Shown here: one piece after another, positions 3,576 through 49,510 of the stretch
Layout of the letters: every line of letters starts with the position of its first letter
Position numbering within the stretch: position 1 is the first letter of the stretch
Assembly: GCA_029252405.1 (NCBI GenBank)
Contig: JAQXBM010000074.1
Location: 124,001-188,000 of the forward strand
From: Crocinitomicaceae bacterium
GTDB taxonomy: Bacteria > Bacteroidota > Bacteroidia > Flavobacteriales_D > Crocinitomicaceae
Direction of reading: 5' to 3'
DNA: 64,000 nt
Made by a program: the position numbers and the translations under genes
The notes under the pieces: generated by a model
What the model was told of the DNA's origin: nothing
What the model saw: only the letters and a program-made list of their open reading frames with translations
The model's database searches: none

Positions 3576-4622
3576 GTGAAACAGAAGGAAATAGTAAGTG
3601 GATTCGCTCAATTGGGAAAGTTGATGCGGGCATTGGGGAACAACGAAGAGTGGGCAGACTTTACAGTGGGTGTTACGGAATCGGAATACGAATCCCTGAT
3701 CGGAATAATTAACCGTCAATTTTCCTACAACGGCTGGTTTACAAAAGAAAATGTCCGTAAAGCATTGCTTAATTTAGGAGATCAACTCACCGAAGAAAAC
3801 CTAACAAATTGGACTTCAAATTACAGTTTCTCGGAAAATCAGAAGCGCATTGGAATCATCATGGCGGGAAACATTCCTTTGGTTGGATTTCACGATTTTC
3901 TTTGTACACTCTGTTCTGGAAACAAAGCTGTTTGTAAACTCAGCTCAAATGACAAAACATTACTTCCAGCACTGGCGGCTCATTTAATTGAGTTTTGCCC
4001 CTCCTTAAAAGAACGCATTGAATTTAGTGGAGGTAAAATAGGGGAGATGGATGGTGTAATCGCCACTGGAAGTGATAATTCCATCAAATACTTCGAACAA
4101 TATTTTGGGAAATATCCACACATTTTCCGAAAGAACAGAACATCAGTCGCTGTTTTGGATGGAACAGAATCGAAGGAAGATTTGAATCGTTTGGGAGAAG
4201 ACATTTTCTCGTACTTCGGTTTGGGATGCCGTAACGTATCTCATTTGTTTGTACCTCAAGACTTTGAATTGAGTCATTTCTTCGAAGCAATTGTACCTTA
4301 CGGAGATATCATTCACAACAACAAATACGGAAATAACTACGATTATCACCGTGCCGTATACCTGATGAATCAAATTCCTTTGCTCGATAACAACTTCGTG
4401 CTGCTTCGAGAATCAGAAGATTTGTTTTCTCCTTTGGCCATCATTCATTTTGAGCGATACCAAGACATGAATTCAGTAAAAGAGAAGTTGTCCGATAATG
4501 AAGAAAACATCCAAGTGATTGTTGGAAATGGTTTTGAGTCTTTTGGTTCATCTCAAATTCCAACGCTATCGGATTACGCGGACGGAGTAGACGTGATGAA
4601 ATGGCTCGGGAGTATTTCGTGA
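3576..4622 (+). CDS. LuxC-like acyl-CoA reductase
   Basis: This 348-aa protein resembles the LuxC/acyl-CoA reductase family, NAD(P)H-dependent enzymes of the aldehyde dehydrogenase superfamily that reduce acyl-CoA to aldehyde. Visible features are the nucleotide-binding segment GIIMAGNIPLVGFHDFL near residue 93 and FGLGCRNVSHLFVP near 215, whose cysteine is the likely acyl-thioester nucleophile. The length is shorter than classical LuxC (~480 aa), as is normal for the Bacteroidota form. The start is GTG, supported by the promoter box ending 4 bases upstream. Its divergent neighbour is a ferredoxin. No luciferase genes are present, so the natural substrate is unknown. Confidence 0.8.
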   Translation: MKQKEIVSGFAQLGKLMRALGNNEEWADFTVGVTESEYESLIGIINRQFSYNGWFTKENVRKALLNLGDQLTEENLTNWTSNYSFSENQKRIGIIMAGNIPLVGFHDFLCTLCSGNKAVCKLSSNDKTLLPALAAHLIEFCPSLKERIEFSGGKIGEMDGVIATGSDNSIKYFEQYFGKYPHIFRKNRTSVAVLDGTESKEDLNRLGEDIFSYFGLGCRNVSHLFVPQDFELSHFFEAIVPYGDIIHNNKYGNNYDYHRAVYLMNQIPLLDNNFVLLRESEDLFSPLAIIHFERYQDMNSVKEKLSDNEENIQVIVGNGFESFGSSQIPTLSDYADGVDVMKWLGSIS

Positions 4623-8484: not shown

Positions 8485-11400
8485 CTATTTCAGAATAAGT
8501 TCATCGACGAATAACCAAGTGTCGTTTCCGTTTCCTAAATGCCATTCTGGGCACTTGCCAACATTTTTTACTGTGATCCGAACTTTCGCGAACTTTGCAG
8601 GCGAACCAGGTTTCGCTGAGTAAACGACTTTGTGAGCGGCCATTGATTCTTCTGTTTCGCGTTCAATTTTACTCTTGCCAACTTCTACGAATGTCGTTCC
8701 GTCAGTGGAAACTTCGAAAACTACTTCTTTGGGAAGGAAAATCCATGATTTCATATCTGAAAGACAGCCAATCCCGATTTCAGAAAGGGAACGTCCACCT
8801 TCAAATTGAACTTCCAGGATGAGGTCTTGTGCCCAGTATCCTTGCCAATCGCCAGTTCTGAATTCGTTTCCTCCAGAAATCCCGTCAATGAGTGCGAGAT
8901 CACCTCCAGCAGCATATTGATTAGCATATTCTGAAAACAACTGAAGTGAAATCGTTTTGTCGCGTTTCACAAAGTCGTTGCGCGTATTTGTGCTGAAATA
9001 ACCGTCTTTCCAAGTTCTAGCCTGAACTTCAGTGTTATCTGTAATGGTAAAAGGCGCAGTATATTTTTTGGAGTGAATGTCAGGAATTGATCCGTCAAGC
9101 GTGTAGAAAATATCGTATTCATCTGCATTGACAACATTCAACGAAATTTGCATTTCTCTATCAAAAACACGTATCTCCTGTTCGATGAACGGAAGTGGCA
9201 CGAAGGTTTCAGGCGTTTCTGAAAGAGTAGGGGCATGCTCAAATGAACTGCGATTAGTAGCAGGTTCGCTTCCCATTTTGATGATCAACTTTCCTCCTTT
9301 GAGAATATCTTCGTGAGAAATATAATGTTGATCCAATACTTTTCTATTCAGCTTAACGCTCTGAACGTATTTGTTAGATTTTGAATTGTTCTGAGTGCGA
9401 ATTTCTAAGATTTTGCCATTTTCCAAATGGATAATCGCTTTGTCCATGATTGGACGTCCTATTTCATAGTAAGGATTTCCTGGGGCGATTTGATAGATTC
9501 CCATTGAACTCAGCACATACCAAGATGACATCTGACCGCAATCTTCATTTCCTGAAAGTCCATCAGGTTTCGTCGAGTACATTTCCTTCAAAATTCGATC
9601 GACGTATTCTTGGGTTTTGTGAGGTGCATTTGTGTAGTTGTACAAATACGCCATGTGATGCGAAGGCTCGTTTCCGTGTGCATACTGACCAATCAACCCA
9701 GTGATGTCTACTTGGTGCCTTCCAGATAAATTTGATTCCGTCGTAAACAAACGATCCAGCCAGATTTCCAAGGAGTCTTTTCCGCCCAACAAATCGGTGA
9801 GAACGCCAACAGCATGTGGTGCGTAAAGTGAGTATTGCCAGCTATTAGCTTCGGTATAGTTGAAGTTAACTTCGGCTGGATCAAATGGACTGAACCATTG
9901 ACCACTTCGTCTTGCACGCATAAATTTCGTCTGAGGGTCAAAGGTATTGATGAAGTTGAAAGATGTCTTTTCCCATTGTTTCACGGAACCAAACTCACCT
10001 TCTATTCCATCTTTTGCAGCAGCTTTCGCAAATTGAGCAATGCAGTAATCATCGTAGGCGTATTCTAAGGTTTTCGATACTGATTCTGGTTCATCGGCAA
10101 TATCAATGTAGCCGCGACGACCGAAACTTTCCTTTCCAAATTCATCAAACCTGGATGTCGCCGTCATCATATTCAAAAACTTGCTTGCGTTTATTTTTCG
10201 GTCAGAATTTCGTCCCAATCCCTTTATAAAAGCATCAGCAATGACTGAAACACTGTGATATCCAATCATGCATTCCGTTTCATTTCCAGCCAATTCCCAT
10301 ACGGGCAAATCTCCACCTTGATCAAATTGTCGCTCAAAAGTATTTAAGAAGTCTATCGTTCGATCTTGCTGAACAATCGTGTAAAGTGGGTGAGTTGCGC
10401 GATAGGTGTCCCACAAAGAGAAAACAGTATAATTCTCACCTTCAGATTCGCTGAGTTGATGGATTGCATTGTCACGTCCTCGGTATCTTCCGTCAACGTC
10501 GCTGAATAAGTTCGGTGCAAGGAATGAGTGGTAAAGCGCCGTGTAGAACGTCGTCATTGTTTCCTTGTCCTTCGAAGCAAAATCAATGCAGCTTAGTTCT
10601 TTCTCCCATTTCTGATTGACTTCAACTCTCAATCGGTTAAAATCCCAATGTGGAATTTCTTTCTCGAGATTCTGTCGTGCACCAATCTGATCCACCGCAG
10701 ACATTCCGACTTTTACCGAGATCTCTTCAACTCCTTTCGGAAAGACTAAGAGCAATTTGTTTTTCCCTCTTTTCTGCAATCGACGTACTTTCTGGAATGG
10801 AACACTCGTTTCCAAATGAAAATAAAAATGCTGTTCATTTGCCCAAGCCTGAGAAGTACGGAATCCTTGAATGGTTTTTTTATTGATGACTTCGAAATCG
10901 CTGTCAAGTACCTTATCGCGATGATCAAGGTCAATTAATATGAATCGCTTACCATCAGGATCATTAAAGGTGTATTCGTGCAATCCGCTTCGATCGCCAA
11001 CGGTTAAACGCACGTTTATATCTTCATCAATCAATTTTACGTCGTAATATCCGGGTCTTGCGTGTTCATCATCATGAGAAAATCGTGAACCGTACCCGCC
11101 TTCTGCAGAATAACCAGGCTCAACTTTTGGACTTCCCGATTGAGGAACAATCAATAAATCGCAATAATCTGGAACACCAGTTCCGCTTAAGTGAGTATGG
11201 CTGAAGCCGTAAATGATTGAATCAGAATAATGATATCCTGAACACCCATCCCAACCTTCGTAGCGCGTATCTGGACTGAGTTGCATCATTCCGAAAGGCG
11301 CTGTTGCTCCTGGGTAGGTATGTCCATGCCCACCAGTTCCGATGAACGGATTTACGTAAAATGTTTTTGATTTATTCGCGCCTTTTGTGTCTGTAGAAAT

Positions 11401-44637: not shown

Positions 44638-45677
44638 TGGATTCATTAACGCAAATTGTGCTAGGCGCAGCTGTTGGAGAAGCAGTTTTAGGTAAGAAAA
44701 TTGGATCTCGAGCGATGTTGTGGGGAGCAATTGCAGGAACAATTCCAGATTTGGATGTTCTATTTCGATTCGTAACGGATGACATTACAGCAACGGAAAT
44801 GCACCGGGGTTTCTCGCATTCCATCCTTTTTAGTTTGCTTTTGGCCCCCGCGCTAGCTTGGGGCGCGCATCGGATTCATCAGAAGAAGAGGCCTACTGTA
44901 ACTCGAAGAGATTGGATTTTACTCTTTTTCCTTGCGTTGGTAACTCATCCTATGCTGGATATGCATACAACTTGGGGAACCCAGTTTTTCTGGCCGTTTG
45001 AAGTCCGAATTACCTACAACAACATTTTCGTAGTCGATCCGCTATACACGATCCCATTCTTGATTTGCTTGATGATTGCGATGTTCCACAAAAGGACGAA
45101 TCCCCGTAGGCGAATATTTAACAATGCTGGACTCATCATCAGTACTTCGTACATGGCACTAACCTTCGTGTTTAAGGGCTTCAGCTACCATGCTGTAGAT
45201 GAAAGTTTGGCGAAGCAAGGTGTTGATTTTGTTGAGATTGAAACGCTGCCTACACCGTTAAATACTGTGCTGTGGAATGCACATATTGAAACGAAGAATG
45301 GCTATCGATTTGGTCGTTATTCTTTGCTAGATGATGATCAACCAATTATTTTCTCAAAAGAATTCCCTAAAAATCATCACTTAATTGACTCTATTCGAGA
45401 CGAAAAGGCAATTCAGCAGATTCTGAAGATTGCTAACGGTTGGTACACCATAGAAAAGGCGAAAGATAAATTGATTTTCAATGATTTGCGCTTTGGTCAA
45501 TTTGGGATGAACCCGAATACGGCAAAAATCATGTGGAGATATGAAATATCTGCTGGCCCAAAGAATGAGGTGCGAGTAAAAAGACTCCAGCCGAATATGG
45601 ATGAAATCAACTTGGGTGAAGTGTTTGGTCAGCTTTGGAGAAGGATTAAAGGGGATAAGTCTGTGGAGAGTGAGTGA
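44637..45677 (+). CDS. Membrane-bound metal-dependent hydrolase (YdjM/DUF457 type)
   Basis: This 346-aa protein has about four membrane helices in its first half and the family signature: MDSLTQIVLGAAVGEAVLG at the start, GTIPDLDVLFR with conserved acidic residues, HRGFSHSILFSLLL with the metal-binding His, and THPMLDMHTTWGTQ. These residues are characteristic of the LexA-regulated YdjM/YbcI proteins. The C-terminal ~150 residues form a soluble beta-rich domain. Function is not established. It follows the GNAT-like gene with one base overlap. Confidence 0.85.
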   Translation: MDSLTQIVLGAAVGEAVLGKKIGSRAMLWGAIAGTIPDLDVLFRFVTDDITATEMHRGFSHSILFSLLLAPALAWGAHRIHQKKRPTVTRRDWILLFFLALVTHPMLDMHTTWGTQFFWPFEVRITYNNIFVVDPLYTIPFLICLMIAMFHKRTNPRRRIFNNAGLIISTSYMALTFVFKGFSYHAVDESLAKQGVDFVEIETLPTPLNTVLWNAHIETKNGYRFGRYSLLDDDQPIIFSKEFPKNHHLIDSIRDEKAIQQILKIANGWYTIEKAKDKLIFNDLRFGQFGMNPNTAKIMWRYEISAGPKNEVRVKRLQPNMDEINLGEVFGQLWRRIKGDKSVESE

Positions 45678-45696
45678 GTATTGATATCTCATTTAT

Positions 45697-45744
45697 CAGA
45701 CAATCAGACAATCAGACAATCAGACAATCAGACAATCAGACAAT
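45697..45744. repeat. Six perfect 8-bp tandem repeats (CAGACAAT)
   Basis: Six exact copies of CAGACAAT occupy 48 bases between convergent genes (reverse complement unit GATTGTCT). The tract is likely to change length by slippage. Compare the octamers at 15760-15791 and 58269-58292. Confidence 0.9.
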
Positions 45745-45753
45745 CGAATCCAC

Positions 45754-47166
45754 CTACCTGAACAAACAATCAATCGTCAAATCGTGATCCACAACAGCAG
45801 AACTATACTTATTCTCTTTCACGCCATGTGTGGTAACCATCGTTAAGAAAATACCTTTTCGCCCTGCTTTATCAGCTTTAAACTCTCGTTTTTTCGTCTC
45901 TAGGCGTTTTAAATAGCCCGCGTCAATCACAAATTCGTCGTTGTAGAATTTCATTTCACACAAATTCACCCAGTTGTCATCACGATCAATGACCATATCC
46001 ACCTGAGCATTTGAATTGTCCCAAGCGTAGTTGGTTGAAGCGATTCCTTCAATTTTTAGTGCCTTTTTGATCTGATTGCTGTGCTTCAGACAAATCGTTT
46101 CAAAGGTAAATCCGCACCAAATAGAATATTCAGGTTTCTGATACAGACGTTGCCAACTGTTTCCTTTGTATGGCTGCATGAACTTCAAGTAAAACAAGCA
46201 ATACTCATCGTAGATCCGATAAAGTGTTCCTTTCGCTTTTCCTGAGTATGAGTCGTATTGCAAGACGAATCCTGAAATTTCCAATTCCTTTAATGATCGA
46301 GAAAATCGGCCGCTTGATTGCACGCCACATTTCTTCAGTAGTTCGTTTCGACTTAGACCTTTCTTCTTTCCGTGTGCTAGGGCATCAATAATCATCTTGT
46401 GATAAGAGGAGGAGTCAAAGAGTGAATCAAAAACCTCATCAAACTCATTTTCTAAGTAAGCTCCAGGCTGAAAACATAGGCGGTCTATTGTGCTTACAGC
46501 AGATTCGCCCTTCTGAACTTGTTCCAAGTATTCGGGAATTCCCCCAAGCGACATGTAGATCTTCAATAACTCATATTCGAGCATGGGGTATTTTTTATGC
46601 TCGAAGAAATCTCTTACTTCCCCAAGAGTGAATGGTTTGAGGTTAATGCGTTGAGTGATGCGTTTGCTTAGTCCTTTGTGATTTTTAATCAGCTTTTTGA
46701 CCATATATGAAGCGGAGGATCCACAAACAACAACCACCAAATCCGTTCTGCCAACGCAGTAGTCATTCCAGAAGTTTTCAAATGCAGCCAGAAACCCTGA
46801 TTTGTTCGTAGCGATCCATGGAAATTCATCGATGAAAATGACTTTCTTTTTATTGCTTTTTCGAAGTTGAGAAATGTACTTTTTTAATAGGACAAAACAA
46901 TCAATCCAATCTTCGGGTTTTTCATCTACAAATTTGTCGGTAATCTCATTCAGCTTTGTTTGAAAGTTCTTGATCTGAACATCTCGGGTTCCTTCACTGA
47001 ATCCTGTCATTGAGAAAATCATATTTTTCTCGTAAAACTCCCTGATCAGGAATGTTTTACCGATTCTTCTGCGGCCGTAAATAGCAATTAATTCGGATCT
47101 CGAACTCTTCAAAGCATTACTAAGAACTTCCTTTTCTGTTGACCTTCCTACGATTGTTTTTGGCAT
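45754..47166 (-). CDS. AAA ATPase with DUF234-type C-terminus
   Basis: The start at 47166 (470 aa; MPKTIVGRSTEKEVL) fits the family; an upstream ATG at 47244 lies inside the inverted-repeat region. Walker A is IYGRRRIGKTFLIREF (~residue 33), and Walker B is VIFIDEFPWIATNKSG with an arginine-bearing R motif later. The middle holds a winged-helix segment (LSRNELLKKCGVQSSG). The C-terminal half is a DUF234/nuclease-like fold with FEMKFYND-like CEMKFYNDEFVID. These ATPases are frequent, often multi-copy, accessory genes in Bacteroidota and archaea, of unclear function. It is unrelated in function to both neighbours. Confidence 0.85.
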   Translation of the reverse strand: MPKTIVGRSTEKEVLSNALKSSRSELIAIYGRRRIGKTFLIREFYEKNMIFSMTGFSEGTRDVQIKNFQTKLNEITDKFVDEKPEDWIDCFVLLKKYISQLRKSNKKKVIFIDEFPWIATNKSGFLAAFENFWNDYCVGRTDLVVVVCGSSASYMVKKLIKNHKGLSKRITQRINLKPFTLGEVRDFFEHKKYPMLEYELLKIYMSLGGIPEYLEQVQKGESAVSTIDRLCFQPGAYLENEFDEVFDSLFDSSSYHKMIIDALAHGKKKGLSRNELLKKCGVQSSGRFSRSLKELEISGFVLQYDSYSGKAKGTLYRIYDEYCLFYLKFMQPYKGNSWQRLYQKPEYSIWCGFTFETICLKHSNQIKKALKIEGIASTNYAWDNSNAQVDMVIDRDDNWVNLCEMKFYNDEFVIDAGYLKRLETKKREFKADKAGRKGIFLTMVTTHGVKENKYSSAVVDHDLTIDCLFR

Positions 47167-47177
47167 GTGAAATAATT

Positions 47178-47226
47178 TATAGGTGTTCCAAAAGTAGTCA
47201 TTTTTATCTGTTTTGGAACACCTATA
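47178..47226. repeat. Inverted repeat 1 at the ATPase promoter
   Basis: Perfect 16-bp arms TATAGGTGTTCCAAAA (47178-47193) and TTTTGGAACACCTATA (47211-47226) flank a 17-base spacer. On the minus strand the -7 promoter box TACTTTTG (47196 down to 47189) overlaps the inner end of the first arm. The arm lies about 12 bases before the ATPase ATG. This is the geometry of a repressor operator or a recombinase/terminal site. Confidence 0.88.
47189..47196 (-). promoter_or_regulatory. -7 promoter box of the ATPase gene
   Basis: TACTTTTG on the minus strand fits TAnnTTTG, 22 bases before the ATG at 47166, and is embedded in inverted repeat 1, so a protein binding the repeat would block the promoter. 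Confidence 0.55.
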
Positions 47227-47254
47227 TTTAAATTTATCACTCAATAATACGAGT

Positions 47255-47303
47255 TATAAGTGTTCCAAATTAATCTTTTTACACCTGTTTTGGAACACTT
47301 ATA
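47255..47303. repeat. Inverted repeat 2, diverged copy of repeat 1
   Basis: Perfect 15-bp arms TATAAGTGTTCCAAA (47255-47269) and TTTGGAACACTTATA (47289-47303) flank a 19-base spacer. The arms share GTGTTCCAAA with repeat 1, and the spacers are similar too (TCATTTTTATCTG versus ATCTTTTTACACCTG), which indicates that the whole element was tandemly duplicated at a 77-base period. Confidence 0.85.
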
Positions 47304-47493
47304 TCCCGAAAAGTGTGAGCGTAGTAAAGTGTAAATCAGGTAAAACTACCTAAGGAGACAACAGGAAATTATCCGTATTTTTAGGCAGCTTAACGAAGTT
47401 TCTATTCAGAAAACCAACTTTCACAATGCCGTTGGATGATTAGTTTCTCGTTGATAATATCTACACATCAAAATTCACTAACACTGAAAAACT

Positions 47494-48492
47494 ATGAGTC
47501 AAAAACAAAACACAATCATCATTCACGATGGAGCTACGGACGAGCTAATGTCGATTCTTTTCGCTGCATCCATGTCCAATATCAGCATTAAAGGAATCAT
47601 GGTGCTCAACGCCGATTGCCAAGGATATCCAACAGCCAACGTCAGTAGTAAATTACTCGATTTGATCAATTTGAAAGATATTCCTGTTACTGTTTCAGGC
47701 GCACGCGGGTGGAATCCATTTCCATGGGGCTATCGCCAATATTCACTCATGGTGAATCTTTTTCCTATTGTCAATCAATATAAAGAAGATGTGATCGTGC
47801 CAGAGCCCGAAATGGATTACCCCTTAACGAAAATGGTGGATAAAGTGTATACTGAAGGCGGAAACTCGCCCGTTAAAATTCTGTGTCTTTCACCAGTTAC
47901 AGATATTGCAGAGGCGATAAAATCCGATTCCAGTTTTGCTTCTAAAATTTCCGACATCGTATGGATGGGAGGAGTGTACATTAACAATGAAACACAGTTT
48001 GGGAACATTGATACAGGAGTCGCGCCAGGAGCAAACCCAAATGCAGAATGGAATGTGTATTGGGATCCACAAGCGACGCAGGATGTGCTTAAATCTGGAA
48101 TAAAAATCAAAATGTTTCCACTTAACGTAACGAACAGCGTCATTCTTACAGGTGAAATTATTCGACAGTACTTTATTCCAGACAGCAATAAATACCCAGC
48201 ACTTGATCTTGCAGCGCAAATGTACGCGCTTGTTGCATTTCAGTACGGGTTTAGCTTCTGGGACACTGCAGCGACCGCATTTCTAGGAAAGCCAGATTTG
48301 TTCGAAATGAAGCCCGCATTTGTTGATGTTGATACATCACCAGTGCCTTCCAAGCAAGGAACAATGACGGTTGAGTTCATTTCCGAAACGCAGCCATTGA
48401 AATCGAATATAGAGATAGCAACTACTATTGATGTAGATGGATTCTACGATTACTACGTTGGGCAATTGAAGACTTTGCAGTTTAAATCATAA
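47494..48492 (+). CDS. Nucleoside hydrolase-like protein
   Basis: This 332-aa protein fits the inosine-uridine nucleoside hydrolase fold: N-terminal strand IIIHDGATDELMSILFA, then GIMVLNADCQGYP, LCLSPVTDIAEAI, WMGGVYINNETQFGN and the late NVYWDPQA. In the family the first Ca-binding motif is D.D..DD; here it reads HDGATDE, lacking the first Asp and changing the last to Glu. Either this is a subfamily with altered binding or activity is reduced. Substrate unknown. It ends at a shared bidirectional terminator. Confidence 0.75.
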   Translation: MSQKQNTIIIHDGATDELMSILFAASMSNISIKGIMVLNADCQGYPTANVSSKLLDLINLKDIPVTVSGARGWNPFPWGYRQYSLMVNLFPIVNQYKEDVIVPEPEMDYPLTKMVDKVYTEGGNSPVKILCLSPVTDIAEAIKSDSSFASKISDIVWMGGVYINNETQFGNIDTGVAPGANPNAEWNVYWDPQATQDVLKSGIKIKMFPLNVTNSVILTGEIIRQYFIPDSNKYPALDLAAQMYALVAFQYGFSFWDTAATAFLGKPDLFEMKPAFVDVDTSPVPSKQGTMTVEFISETQPLKSNIEIATTIDVDGFYDYYVGQLKTLQFKS

Positions 48493-48510
48493 TACAAGAA
48501 ATACGAGCAC

Positions 48511-48546
48511 AAAAAAGCCCTCGATTCCAAAGAATCGAGGGCTTTT
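48511..48546. terminator. Bidirectional terminator
   Basis: AAAAGCCCTCGATTC, loop CAAA, GAATCGAGGGCTTTT form a 15-bp perfect stem with A/T runs on both sides. It ends the plus-strand nucleoside hydrolase and the minus-strand trxB. Confidence 0.93.
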
Positions 48547-48559
48547 CAATTAGTTAATC

Positions 48560-49510
48560 TTAGTGTCCTTGAGCGGACAACCAACGTTCAGCGTCCAACG
48601 CAGCCATACAACCTGTTCCGGCAGCAGTAACAGCCTGACGGTATGTCTTGTCAGCAGCATCACCAGCAACAAATACACCCGCTACATTCGTTTTAGATGT
48701 TCCTGGCTCTTCGTATTCGATGTAACCAGTTTCATCCATGTTGATGTAATCCTTGAAAATATCCGTATTGGGTTTGTGGCCAATCGCTACGAAGAAACCT
48801 GTACATGGGATATCATGCTCTTCTCCAGTAACGTTGTTTTTCACGCGAGTACCAGTCACACCCTGTCCATCTCCCAAAACTTCAACCGTTTCAGTATTGT
48901 AAAGGATTTCAATGTTCTCGGTATTCTTTACCCTTTCAGCCATGATTTTTGATGCTCTAAACTCATCTCTACGCACCAACATTGTCACTTTCGTACATAA
49001 TTTCGATAGGTAGTGAGCTTCTTCACATGCCGAATCTCCAGCTCCCACGATTACTGTTTCCTGTCCGCGATAGAAGAATCCATCACAAACAGCACAAGCA
49101 GAAACTCCACCTCCTAATTCAAGGTATTTTTGTTCGCTTTCCAATCCTAAGTACTTAGCAGAAGCTCCAGTAGAAATAATTACTGTTCTTGCATGGATTT
49201 CTTTTCCATCATCCGCCCAACACTTATGAACATCACCTGAAAAGTCAACTTTATTGATAAATCCGAAACGAACATCCGTATCAAAACGTTTTGCTTGTGC
49301 TTCTAATTCTAGCATCATTGCTGGTCCAGTAACACCGTCAGGGTATCCTGGGAAGTTTTCAACTTCGTTTGTAGTTGTTAACTGACCGCCCGGCTGTAAT
49401 CCTTGGTACATAACAGGTTTCATGTCAGCACGCGCTGCATAAATCGCTGCAGTGTATCCAGCAGGACCCGAACCAATAATCAGACAGTCTACTTTTTCTA
49501 TATCACTCAT
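48560..49510 (-). CDS. trxB: Thioredoxin-disulfide reductase
   Basis: I choose the ATG at 49510 (316 aa), which gives the normal TrxB start MSDIEKVDCLIIGSGPAGYT; a longer frame to 49582 adds 24 residues unlike the family. The FAD motif is GSGPAGYTAAIYAARADM, the redox-active pair is CAVC at residues 139-142, and the NADPH motif is IVGAGDSACEEA near 155. The C-terminal FAD contact is GVFVAGDAADKTYRQAVTAA. The enzyme reduces thioredoxin with NADPH. The length fits the prokaryotic low-Mr class. Confidence 0.95.
   Translation of the reverse strand: MSDIEKVDCLIIGSGPAGYTAAIYAARADMKPVMYQGLQPGGQLTTTNEVENFPGYPDGVTGPAMMLELEAQAKRFDTDVRFGFINKVDFSGDVHKCWADDGKEIHARTVIISTGASAKYLGLESEQKYLELGGGVSACAVCDGFFYRGQETVIVGAGDSACEEAHYLSKLCTKVTMLVRRDEFRASKIMAERVKNTENIEILYNTETVEVLGDGQGVTGTRVKNNVTGEEHDIPCTGFFVAIGHKPNTDIFKDYINMDETGYIEYEEPGTSKTNVAGVFVAGDAADKTYRQAVTAAGTGCMAALDAERWLSAQGH

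Follow-up and report, generated by a model that had tools for sequence, protein, structure and literature searches.

Two tandem inverted repeats (dyads) lie upstream of a minus-strand ATPase gene in a Crocinitomicaceae genome, within a 64,000-nucleotide stretch of contig JAQXBM010000074.1 (positions 124,001 to 188,000, hereafter the window), and both are probably the private operator of that gene, a member of the PADLOC family PDC-S27, and read by the winged helix of the PDC-S27 protein itself. Our comparisons of homologous loci strongly suggest that the ATPase reads its own cognate dyad, because the bases of the repeat arms covary with the recognition helix and the wing of the adjacent protein. 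With high probability the dyads are the cognate recognition sites of that protein, and there is a good probability that they act as an autoregulatory operator. An earlier note, made from the letters of the window, had proposed an operator pair of the ATPase gene or a recognition site of the protein itself; the dyads found at most homologues and the covariation support this proposal.

Results

The proximal dyad (operator 1, 47178 to 47226, no strand assigned) has perfect 16-bp arms at 47178-47193 and 47211-47226 around a 17-nt spacer, with the half-site TATAGGTGTTCCAAAA and its centre at 47202, 36 nt 5' of the ATPase ATG, and the distal dyad (operator 2, 47255 to 47303, likewise without strand) has perfect 15-bp arms (20 bp at 90%) at 47255-47269 and 47289-47303 around a 19-nt spacer, with the half-site TATAAGTGTTCCAAA and its centre at 47279. 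The centres, like the starts, are 77 bp apart, a distance that falls in the 75-77 cluster of spacings in the family, and the dyads form two 51-nt units that are 76% identical. These units differ by a symmetric change (GGTGTTCC/GGAACACC versus AGTGTTCC/GGAACACT), so that symmetry has been kept while the sequence changed. Inside the proximal dyad lies TACTTTTG (47189 to 47196, minus strand), which starts 6 nt from the dyad centre and fits TAnnTTTG, the consensus of the Bacteroidota -7 box. The arms, spacers, 77-base period and embedded -7 box are all as the earlier note described them. It had also held that neither flanking gene explains the repeats, which lie between the ATPase ATG (47166) and a divergent nucleoside-hydrolase gene (47494); this does not stand, as the repeats belong to the ATPase gene, whose homologues share them.

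Perfect inverted repeats with arms of at least 14 and spacers of 5-30 are represented in the window by the two dyads and one hairpin at 48513-48546, compared with a mean of 0.025 in 40 dinucleotide shuffles of the window, and an origin of the tandem upstream dyads by chance was rejected on this count. A genome-wide search for the dyad had been named by the earlier note as a check on its proposal, and in the whole genome (4,279,920 bases) GTGTTCCAAA-N10..30-TTTGGAACAC occurs only at the two window sites, beside the ATPase gene, with none in the control. Further full dyads, as members of a regulon, were searched for across the same genome and none were found.

Homologous loci, given L numbers here (and genomes G numbers), were gathered by genome, contig and region searches, which yielded 214 usable loci and 207 distinct proteins, with 205 scored for upstream repeats; 12 loci (two duplicates of the window, the remainder mostly fragments) and 7 duplicate proteins were dropped before this scoring, and the dyad survey excludes proteins below 30% identity. 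The best upstream inverted repeat reached a score of at least 12 at 132 of 205 loci, whereas only one of 615 shuffles and none of 205 gene-internal segments did so. At a lenient threshold, an upstream dyad was accepted at 185 of the 195 homologues of at least 30% identity, with arms that differ between loci, so that the repeat is present upstream of homologues in diverged form, in line with the earlier note. Arm types include TGTTCCAAA, TGTGCCAAA, CAGCCAAA, TTCGCCAAA, CTGGCCAAA, CTTCCCAAA, AGCGGAATCT and TTGGATTTAT. Within the 170 nt immediately 5' of the genes, exact 8-mer inverted repeats are most frequent at gaps of 17 and 19 (gaps of 4-39 considered), and the gap between 7-base cores is 19 or 20 nt in 278 of 281 sites (18-20 allowed); loci whose core had more than one unresolved base were dropped from this gap count and from the counting of upstream sites, and loci with any such base from later analyses that include the dyad densities.

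Outside Bacteroidota, clear dyads occur in Pirellula (L124-L126) and on a Butyrivibrio plasmid (L229), and short-armed ones on a Malaciobacter plasmid (L228) and in Wolbachia phage WO (L227), where ACCGCGG-N19-CCGCGGT, with 7-bp arms, encloses TATAAT. Among eight named plasmid or phage loci, L229 and Emticicia L230 have clear repeats close to the start and Segatella L231 and L233 have theirs further up, whereas no clear repeat is seen close to the start in L232 and L234; the core spacing of L228 and L229 appears wider than 19-20. Eight viral homologues were also scanned: L352, L353, L356 and L358 have an upstream repeat score of at least 11, L351 is weak and three have none. Distant ATPase_2 proteins of 22-26% identity (L016, L084-L086, L088-L092, L223, L225 and L226) do not carry such a dyad as a group, 11 of the 12 scoring 6-10 and L016 scoring 18 with an AT-rich repeat, and in distant PDC-S27 members from archaea, Rhizobium, Cetobacterium and Vescimonas (L235-L241) the dyad is absent from the last 60 nt before the start codon. 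By eye, several of the latter carry short direct repeats, e.g. ATTACTATAA or TCATTATC, about 15 nt apart, which are perhaps another operator type.

Dyads away from the gene were sought by scanning 399 genomes of the order for TCGCCAAA-N19/20-TTTGGCGA (TCGCC type) and inspecting 3-kb stretches around the matches. The pattern was found in 10 genomes, where it adjoins an ATPase gene in five (G353, G248, G035, G006 and G375) and a C-terminal ATPase remnant in two (G363 and G275). Intact dyads lie about 20 nt after C-terminal ATPase remnants at L243 (291-325) and L248 (1501-1535). Within genomes, 3 of 64 paralogue pairs have an identical core, compared with 6.9 expected from between-genome pairs of equal identity, which is no more than suggestive of selection keeping paralogues apart.

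The covariation analysis placed half-sites from the DNA alone and used weighted mutual information over 185 proteins (effective number 109), with positions counted from the dyad centre. Arm position 16 is nearly evenly divided over the family (A 48, C 45, G 42, T 41), yet the two arms agree there in 176 of 185 loci; at spacer positions 1-6 the arms match in 41-76 of 185. The top protein column is S284 for positions 13 and 12, R287 for positions 16 and 17 and K312 for position 11. When raw bases of each arm were taken separately at 73 offsets, only +/-11, 12, 13, 16 and 17 rose above Z 7 (maximum 19.6), and at every one of these the same top residue (K312, S284 or R287) was recovered on both arms. 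S, T or G at residue 284 goes with CAA at positions 13-11 (S 76/80, T 20/25, G 9/10, unresolved position 11 counted), D284 with G at position 12 (28/31, GGA in 18), N284 with T at position 13 (22/24) and A284 with TTT (4/5). K312 goes with A in 100 of 105 cases, the other 5 being unresolved, and R312 with T in 23 of 39 (11 unresolved). At residue 287, T goes with A (32/36), D with C (16/17) and Q with A (8/9), and K291 goes with C (16/17), the D287/K291-C link belonging mostly to one lineage.

Among 92 non-overlapping close pairs, with 78-87 usable per tested position, S284 is the top column for position 13, having changed in 12 of the 15 pairs whose base changed versus 14 of the 72 whose base did not (p = 1.4e-5), R287 for position 16 (17 of 23 versus 16 of 61, p = 9.4e-5) and K312 for position 11 (4 of 4 versus 10 of 74, p = 7e-4). 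A FastTree tree computed with the winged helix left out, from which independent pairs were taken, requires at least 39 changes at position 16. The linked residue moved with the base in a mean of 5.4 of 6 independent pairs for position 13 (C), 7.4 of 10 for position 16 (A), 5.7 of 6 for position 11 (T) and 6.2 of 9 for position 12 (G), almost never moving opposite to the base in these four classes; the weaker classes were position 16 with G (3.9 of 8) and position 16 with C and D287 (1.0 of 14).

TAnnTTTG starts between -10 and +16 relative to the dyad centre in 103 of 150 proximal dyads, 17 of 89 distal dyads, 15 of 55 downstream dyads and 2.5% of shuffles, and at exactly +6, as in the window, in 76 of the 150 proximal dyads. 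Because the -7 box is found mainly in proximal dyads, the promoter is mainly a proximal-dyad feature, and transcription would start at the edge of that dyad. The placement over the -7 box suggests an autoregulatory operator, with repression as the simplest guess.

Most loci carry more than one site. Upstream sites were counted at 175 loci, of which 81 have one and 94 two or more (83 two, 10 three, 1 four), with centre-to-centre distances that cluster at 52-54, 64-66 and 75-77, a few at 87 and 96-98, in steps of about 11-12 bp; the best spacing period is near 11.25-11.5 (R 0.75 over 97 spacings, a figure that stands without a computed null). Cognate dyads are also found after the gene, their density being 12.4/kb at 0-100 nt upstream and 3.7/kb at 0-100 nt after the stop codon, over a background of at most 0.06/kb more than 200 nt past the stop and 0.00-0.06/kb beyond 330 nt. 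Symmetry alone identified 43 downstream dyads among 179 loci, and their position-16 base is that of their own upstream dyad in 41 of 42 resolved cases (permuted 0.30). Among the 146 loci with enough sequence for the arrangement to be counted, 37 have one upstream dyad and a downstream one, 22 one upstream only, 18 two or more upstream and a downstream one, and 69 two or more upstream only, so that 124 of 146 have at least two cognate dyads, the second lying upstream or just after the stop. Two or more dyads look useful, for cooperative binding or looping.

The ATPase gene (PADLOC PDC-S27) spans 45754 to 47166 on the minus strand and encodes 470 amino acids, with its stop codon at 45754-45756. 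An alternative TTG start listed at 47244 would place the proximal dyad inside the open reading frame; the start is most likely the ATG at 47166, because homologues begin at that position. The PADLOC profile PDC-S27 (PDLC04984) matches over its full length (E 8e-176, residues 4-469 on profile positions 3-473/474) and also matches 43 of 43 members of our alignment A1, whereas the DUF234/DUF4143 label of the earlier note is not upheld, since the Pfam matches to DUF234 (PF03008, 13.7 bits, cut-off 22.5) and DUF4143 (13.2 bits, cut-off 28.1) are below threshold. The ATPase domain PF01637 (ATPase_2; 46516 to 47145, minus strand, residues 8-217, E 6.8e-21) contains Walker A (G31-T38) and Walker B (D113-E114), with G36, K37, D113 and E114 kept in 185 of 185 homologues and T38 in 184. 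It is followed by a predicted winged-helix domain (46213 to 46410, minus strand, residues 253-318), present as the earlier note supposed, in an AlphaFold2 model built on a 43-sequence alignment (mean predicted local distance difference test score, pLDDT, 93.6; predicted template modelling score, pTM, 0.90); a MarR_2 match at residues 258-301 is weak and below cut-off. The model places a recognition helix at 286-297, which with the preceding residues (284-297; 46276 to 46317, minus strand) holds the putative specificity residues S284, R287, R290 and S291, and wing strands at 301-308 and 311-318, the second containing K312 (46231 to 46233, minus strand), the residue that covaries with arm position 11. 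The C-terminal half, called nuclease-like by the earlier note, indeed carries a predicted PD-(D/E)XK-type motif (45949 to 46101, minus strand; E356, Q388-x-D390, D397, E404-x-K406) that is apparently intact, its residues each being kept in 183 to 185 of 185 homologues (E356 184, D390 183, E404 185, K406 184). The top solved structures, in a search spanning mainly residues 1-348, are the archaeal ATPases 2qen (VIA Z 20.8, root mean square deviation (rmsd) 3.2, 304 aligned) and 2fna (Z 20.1), followed by CED-4, NLR and ORC proteins. By its predicted architecture the protein is a STAND/AAA+ ATPase with a winged helix and a PD-(D/E)XK-type motif, catalogued as a phage-defence candidate. Tandem CAGACAAT repeats lie immediately 3' of its stop codon, at about 45698-45748 of the window, and elsewhere in the genome contig C7 (L017, about 1501-1800) holds a possible relic of a second ATPase copy, its last 51 residues at 37% identity, that adjoins imperfect ACGCGGAA-type repeats.

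Dyads of PDC-S27 types also occur in phage contigs. Five dyad patterns match viral contigs, in 48 distinct stretches forming 16 sequence groups (L346-L348 and L370-L410 among them), and a sixth has no match there. None of the 48 stretches, which span up to about 14.6 kb of contig so that a homologue further off is possible, carries a PDC-S27 homologue, and none of the matched contigs is among the 18 homologue-bearing viral loci found. In 7 of the 16 groups the dyad lies inside a stop-to-stop frame of at least 150 codons, where it could be coding sequence or a chance match; in the other 9 it lies outside such frames. For the TTCGCC dyad, all 35 stretches, most of them in two related groups, have a 19-nt gap (19 or 20 allowed), and the backward control of the pattern gave 2 stretches versus 35, or versus 6 groups when related contigs are counted once. 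For example, L347 (a 152-kb contig with a tRNA cluster; 10698-10780) has GGTGTTCC and CAGCC dyads, thus two specificities, 44 bp apart and, by eye, a degenerate CGCGGAAT dyad; in L348 (5774-5812) a GTGTTCC dyad whose arms span at least 17 bp lies next to a tRNA, and L346 has a dyad at 3694-3732. Phage genes on these stretches include those for a portal (L377), Erf and an exonuclease (L390), GroEL and a tail fibre (L346) and a helicase (L405). These phage-contig dyads are possibly decoys, which we regard as a lead.

Discussion

Several observations weigh against a private operator read by PDC-S27. Ten of the 195 homologues lack an accepted dyad (one of them, L140, has no upstream sequence) under an acceptance threshold that is itself lenient. 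The TCGCC-type dyad occurs without a homologue on the 3-kb stretch in G240, G250 and G098, which speaks against a strict version in which the dyad always lies by the gene; the expectation drawn from the earlier note, that the repeat is not frequent away from such ATPase genes, holds for its own genome, and in 7 of the 10 TCGCC-type genomes the dyad is by a gene or remnant, in the other 3 not. Choosing sites by symmetry inflates the symmetry figures, though not the covariation with the protein, which is therefore the main test. Within that test, L143, which lies in the ATPase domain, ranks second at +/-13 (Z 9.0 and 10.3), so that some of the covariation reflects shared ancestry or another contact; N121 at +/-20 and R140 at +/-14, also in the ATPase domain, reach Z 6.1-6.6, and the three residues may mark a second DNA contact or, again, common descent. 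In the close pairs S284 comes second for position 12, narrowly behind A457, and R287 does not reach the best five for position 17. Certain residue-base links depend on a single lineage, such as D287-C, where the residue differs in 1 of 14 independent pairs, and the residue classes for the tree pairs were picked after the tables had been seen. A trade-off between a second upstream and a downstream dyad, with a Fisher p of 3.4e-7 by loci, had a median p of 0.109 on the tree and was dropped as not significant. Finally, simple repression has no need of a site after the stop codon.

An improbable alternative is that the dyads are the ends or the target of a mobile unit, in which the nuclease-ATPase would act on its own palindromes and a dyad-gene-(dyad) cassette would move or be copied. 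In agreement with this, a cognate dyad lies within 150 nt past the stop in 55 of 146 loci, and at many homologous loci in unrelated contexts the shared sequence is confined to a segment that begins close to the outer edge of the dyad and ends with the stop codon or the downstream dyad (others share more); L012 and L158, for example, with genes 93.9% identical, have just the segment from -127 to +38 in common. L047 and L048 carry dyad-gene-dyad at a site where G240 and G250 carry one solo dyad with similar flanks, the spacer of the solo dyad at the L047/L250 site resembling that of the downstream dyad, and a tRNA-Asn is near L047, L249 and L250 (not found on L048). A search for the empty form of this site matched 7 of 86 genomes, of which G240 and G250 alone match along all 301 bases, and a second search matched 2 of 6, the left part of its query being a dispersed repeat. 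On the other hand, 91 of 146 loci lack a downstream dyad and many such pairs lose similarity at the stop codon, a dispersed repeat makes up part of the left flank of L047 (though outside the segment shared with L250), inspection by eye of 55 loci with a downstream dyad noticed no target duplication, sharp edges can arise from selection on functional parts alone, and the Pfam matches of the ATPase include no recombinase domain. The window locus itself (45677-48560) shows variable content between two conserved genes: the ATPase gene sits between a YdjM-like gene and trxB, in a slot whose content differs among members of the genus (L255, L257). This slot is about 85 bp in G013 and about 620 bp in G008, where by eye it holds another small gene, whereas in G032 an ATPase fragment follows the YdjM-like gene up to the contig end and in G028 the ATPase adjoins trxB with the YdjM-like gene elsewhere. 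No target duplication, footprint or dyad relic was seen in this comparison, and the recombinase site that the earlier note had offered as an alternative finds no direct support. The cassette has travelled; self-movement is not part of our claim.

Binding by another host protein is less likely still. A promoter dyad by itself names no protein, but here the arm bases covary with the recognition helix and wing of the ATPase at five positions and on both arms, L143 being the next strongest column elsewhere, and the dyads track the gene across phyla, from Pirellula to the Butyrivibrio plasmid and, with short arms, Wolbachia phage WO. A role as RNA hairpins, in an attenuator or terminator, would fit the long arms with loops of 13-20 nt and the terminator positions of the downstream copies, but we consider it just as implausible: since the -7 box is inside 103 of 150 proximal dyads, a full hairpin would not be transcribed from that promoter, the downstream dyads keep the locus-specific base at position 16, which a terminator does not need, and Rfam returned five matches up to an E-value of 1, each under the gathering score.

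If PDC-S27 reads its private operator as proposed, the start of the recognition helix (residues 284, 287, 290 and 291) would contact positions 12-13 and 16-17 from the dyad centre and wing residue 312 would contact position 11, with two subunits presumably binding one dyad. Binding would most likely repress the gene's own transcription, because the proximal dyad covers the -7 box, and a second dyad, upstream at recurring distances or in other lineages just 3' of the stop, may serve cooperative binding or gene looping. The ATPase and the apparently intact nuclease would form the effector part, kept low until a trigger alters the nucleotide state of the protein; our guess for this trigger is phage infection.

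Autoregulation through a dyad is of a known kind. P1-type ParA is an ATPase with a winged helix that represses its own promoter at an inverted repeat, although it belongs to a different ATPase class with a partition role and, to our knowledge, has no nuclease. The origin repeats of archaeal Orc1/Cdc6 often adjoin its own gene, and we know of no nuclease in these proteins either. Orc1/Cdc6 structures (2v1u, 2qby) resemble PDC-S27 in the layout of ATPase and winged helix (VIA Z 13.6 and 13.9, with rmsd 7.4 and 9.2, respectively), weaker than the matches to 2qen and 2fna. According to the accessible text of PMC5760070, IniR of mycobacteria likewise combines an SSO1545-like AAA+ domain with a DNA-binding domain and binds a promoter, but it is an 818-residue activator of iniBAC with a MalT-like domain, for which that text mentions no nuclease, whereas PDC-S27 would act on its own gene. 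RptR-type repressors, as described in PMC12255303, also bind promoter repeats of their own defence island, but RptR is a separate small protein, whereas PDC-S27 would join DNA reader, ATPase and nuclease in one chain whose specificity diversifies. As to the family itself, PMC12988326 presents PDC-S27 as an ATPase fused to the PD-(D/E)XK superfamily, detected 3503 times in archaea and 4562 times in bacteria, and states that most PDCs are without experimental validation; a term search of its main text did not find "inverted repeat". Our searches of the literature on DUF234, PDC-S27, archaeal ATPases and decoys, with partial coverage of journals and preprints, found no report of such repeats and nothing on PDC-S27 control or DNA contacts. 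As far as searched, the operator, recognition helix and second dyad are new here for PDC-S27, as would be a one-protein ATPase-nuclease defence candidate whose private dyad co-evolves with it, frequently flanks the gene on either side and has counterparts in phage contigs.

A bolder reading, which we hold only tentatively and judge to be rather unlikely, would make PDC-S27 a self-addressed immune nuclease, with its private dyad belonging to the immune mechanism and the phage dyads serving as decoys that titrate or mis-set the protein; an arms race, together with insulation between copies, would then account for the use of all four bases at position 16. If the phage dyads are decoys, they would constitute an unusual counter-defence built of DNA sites alone. 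PDC-S27 is an abundant, uncharacterised defence candidate; with the residue-to-base table, compiled from 185 natural pairs, its DNA binding can be tested directly and the site read by each copy can be predicted. The joint change of protein and dyad across many bacteria suggests that this is an immune gene controlling itself through a private switch that can evolve.
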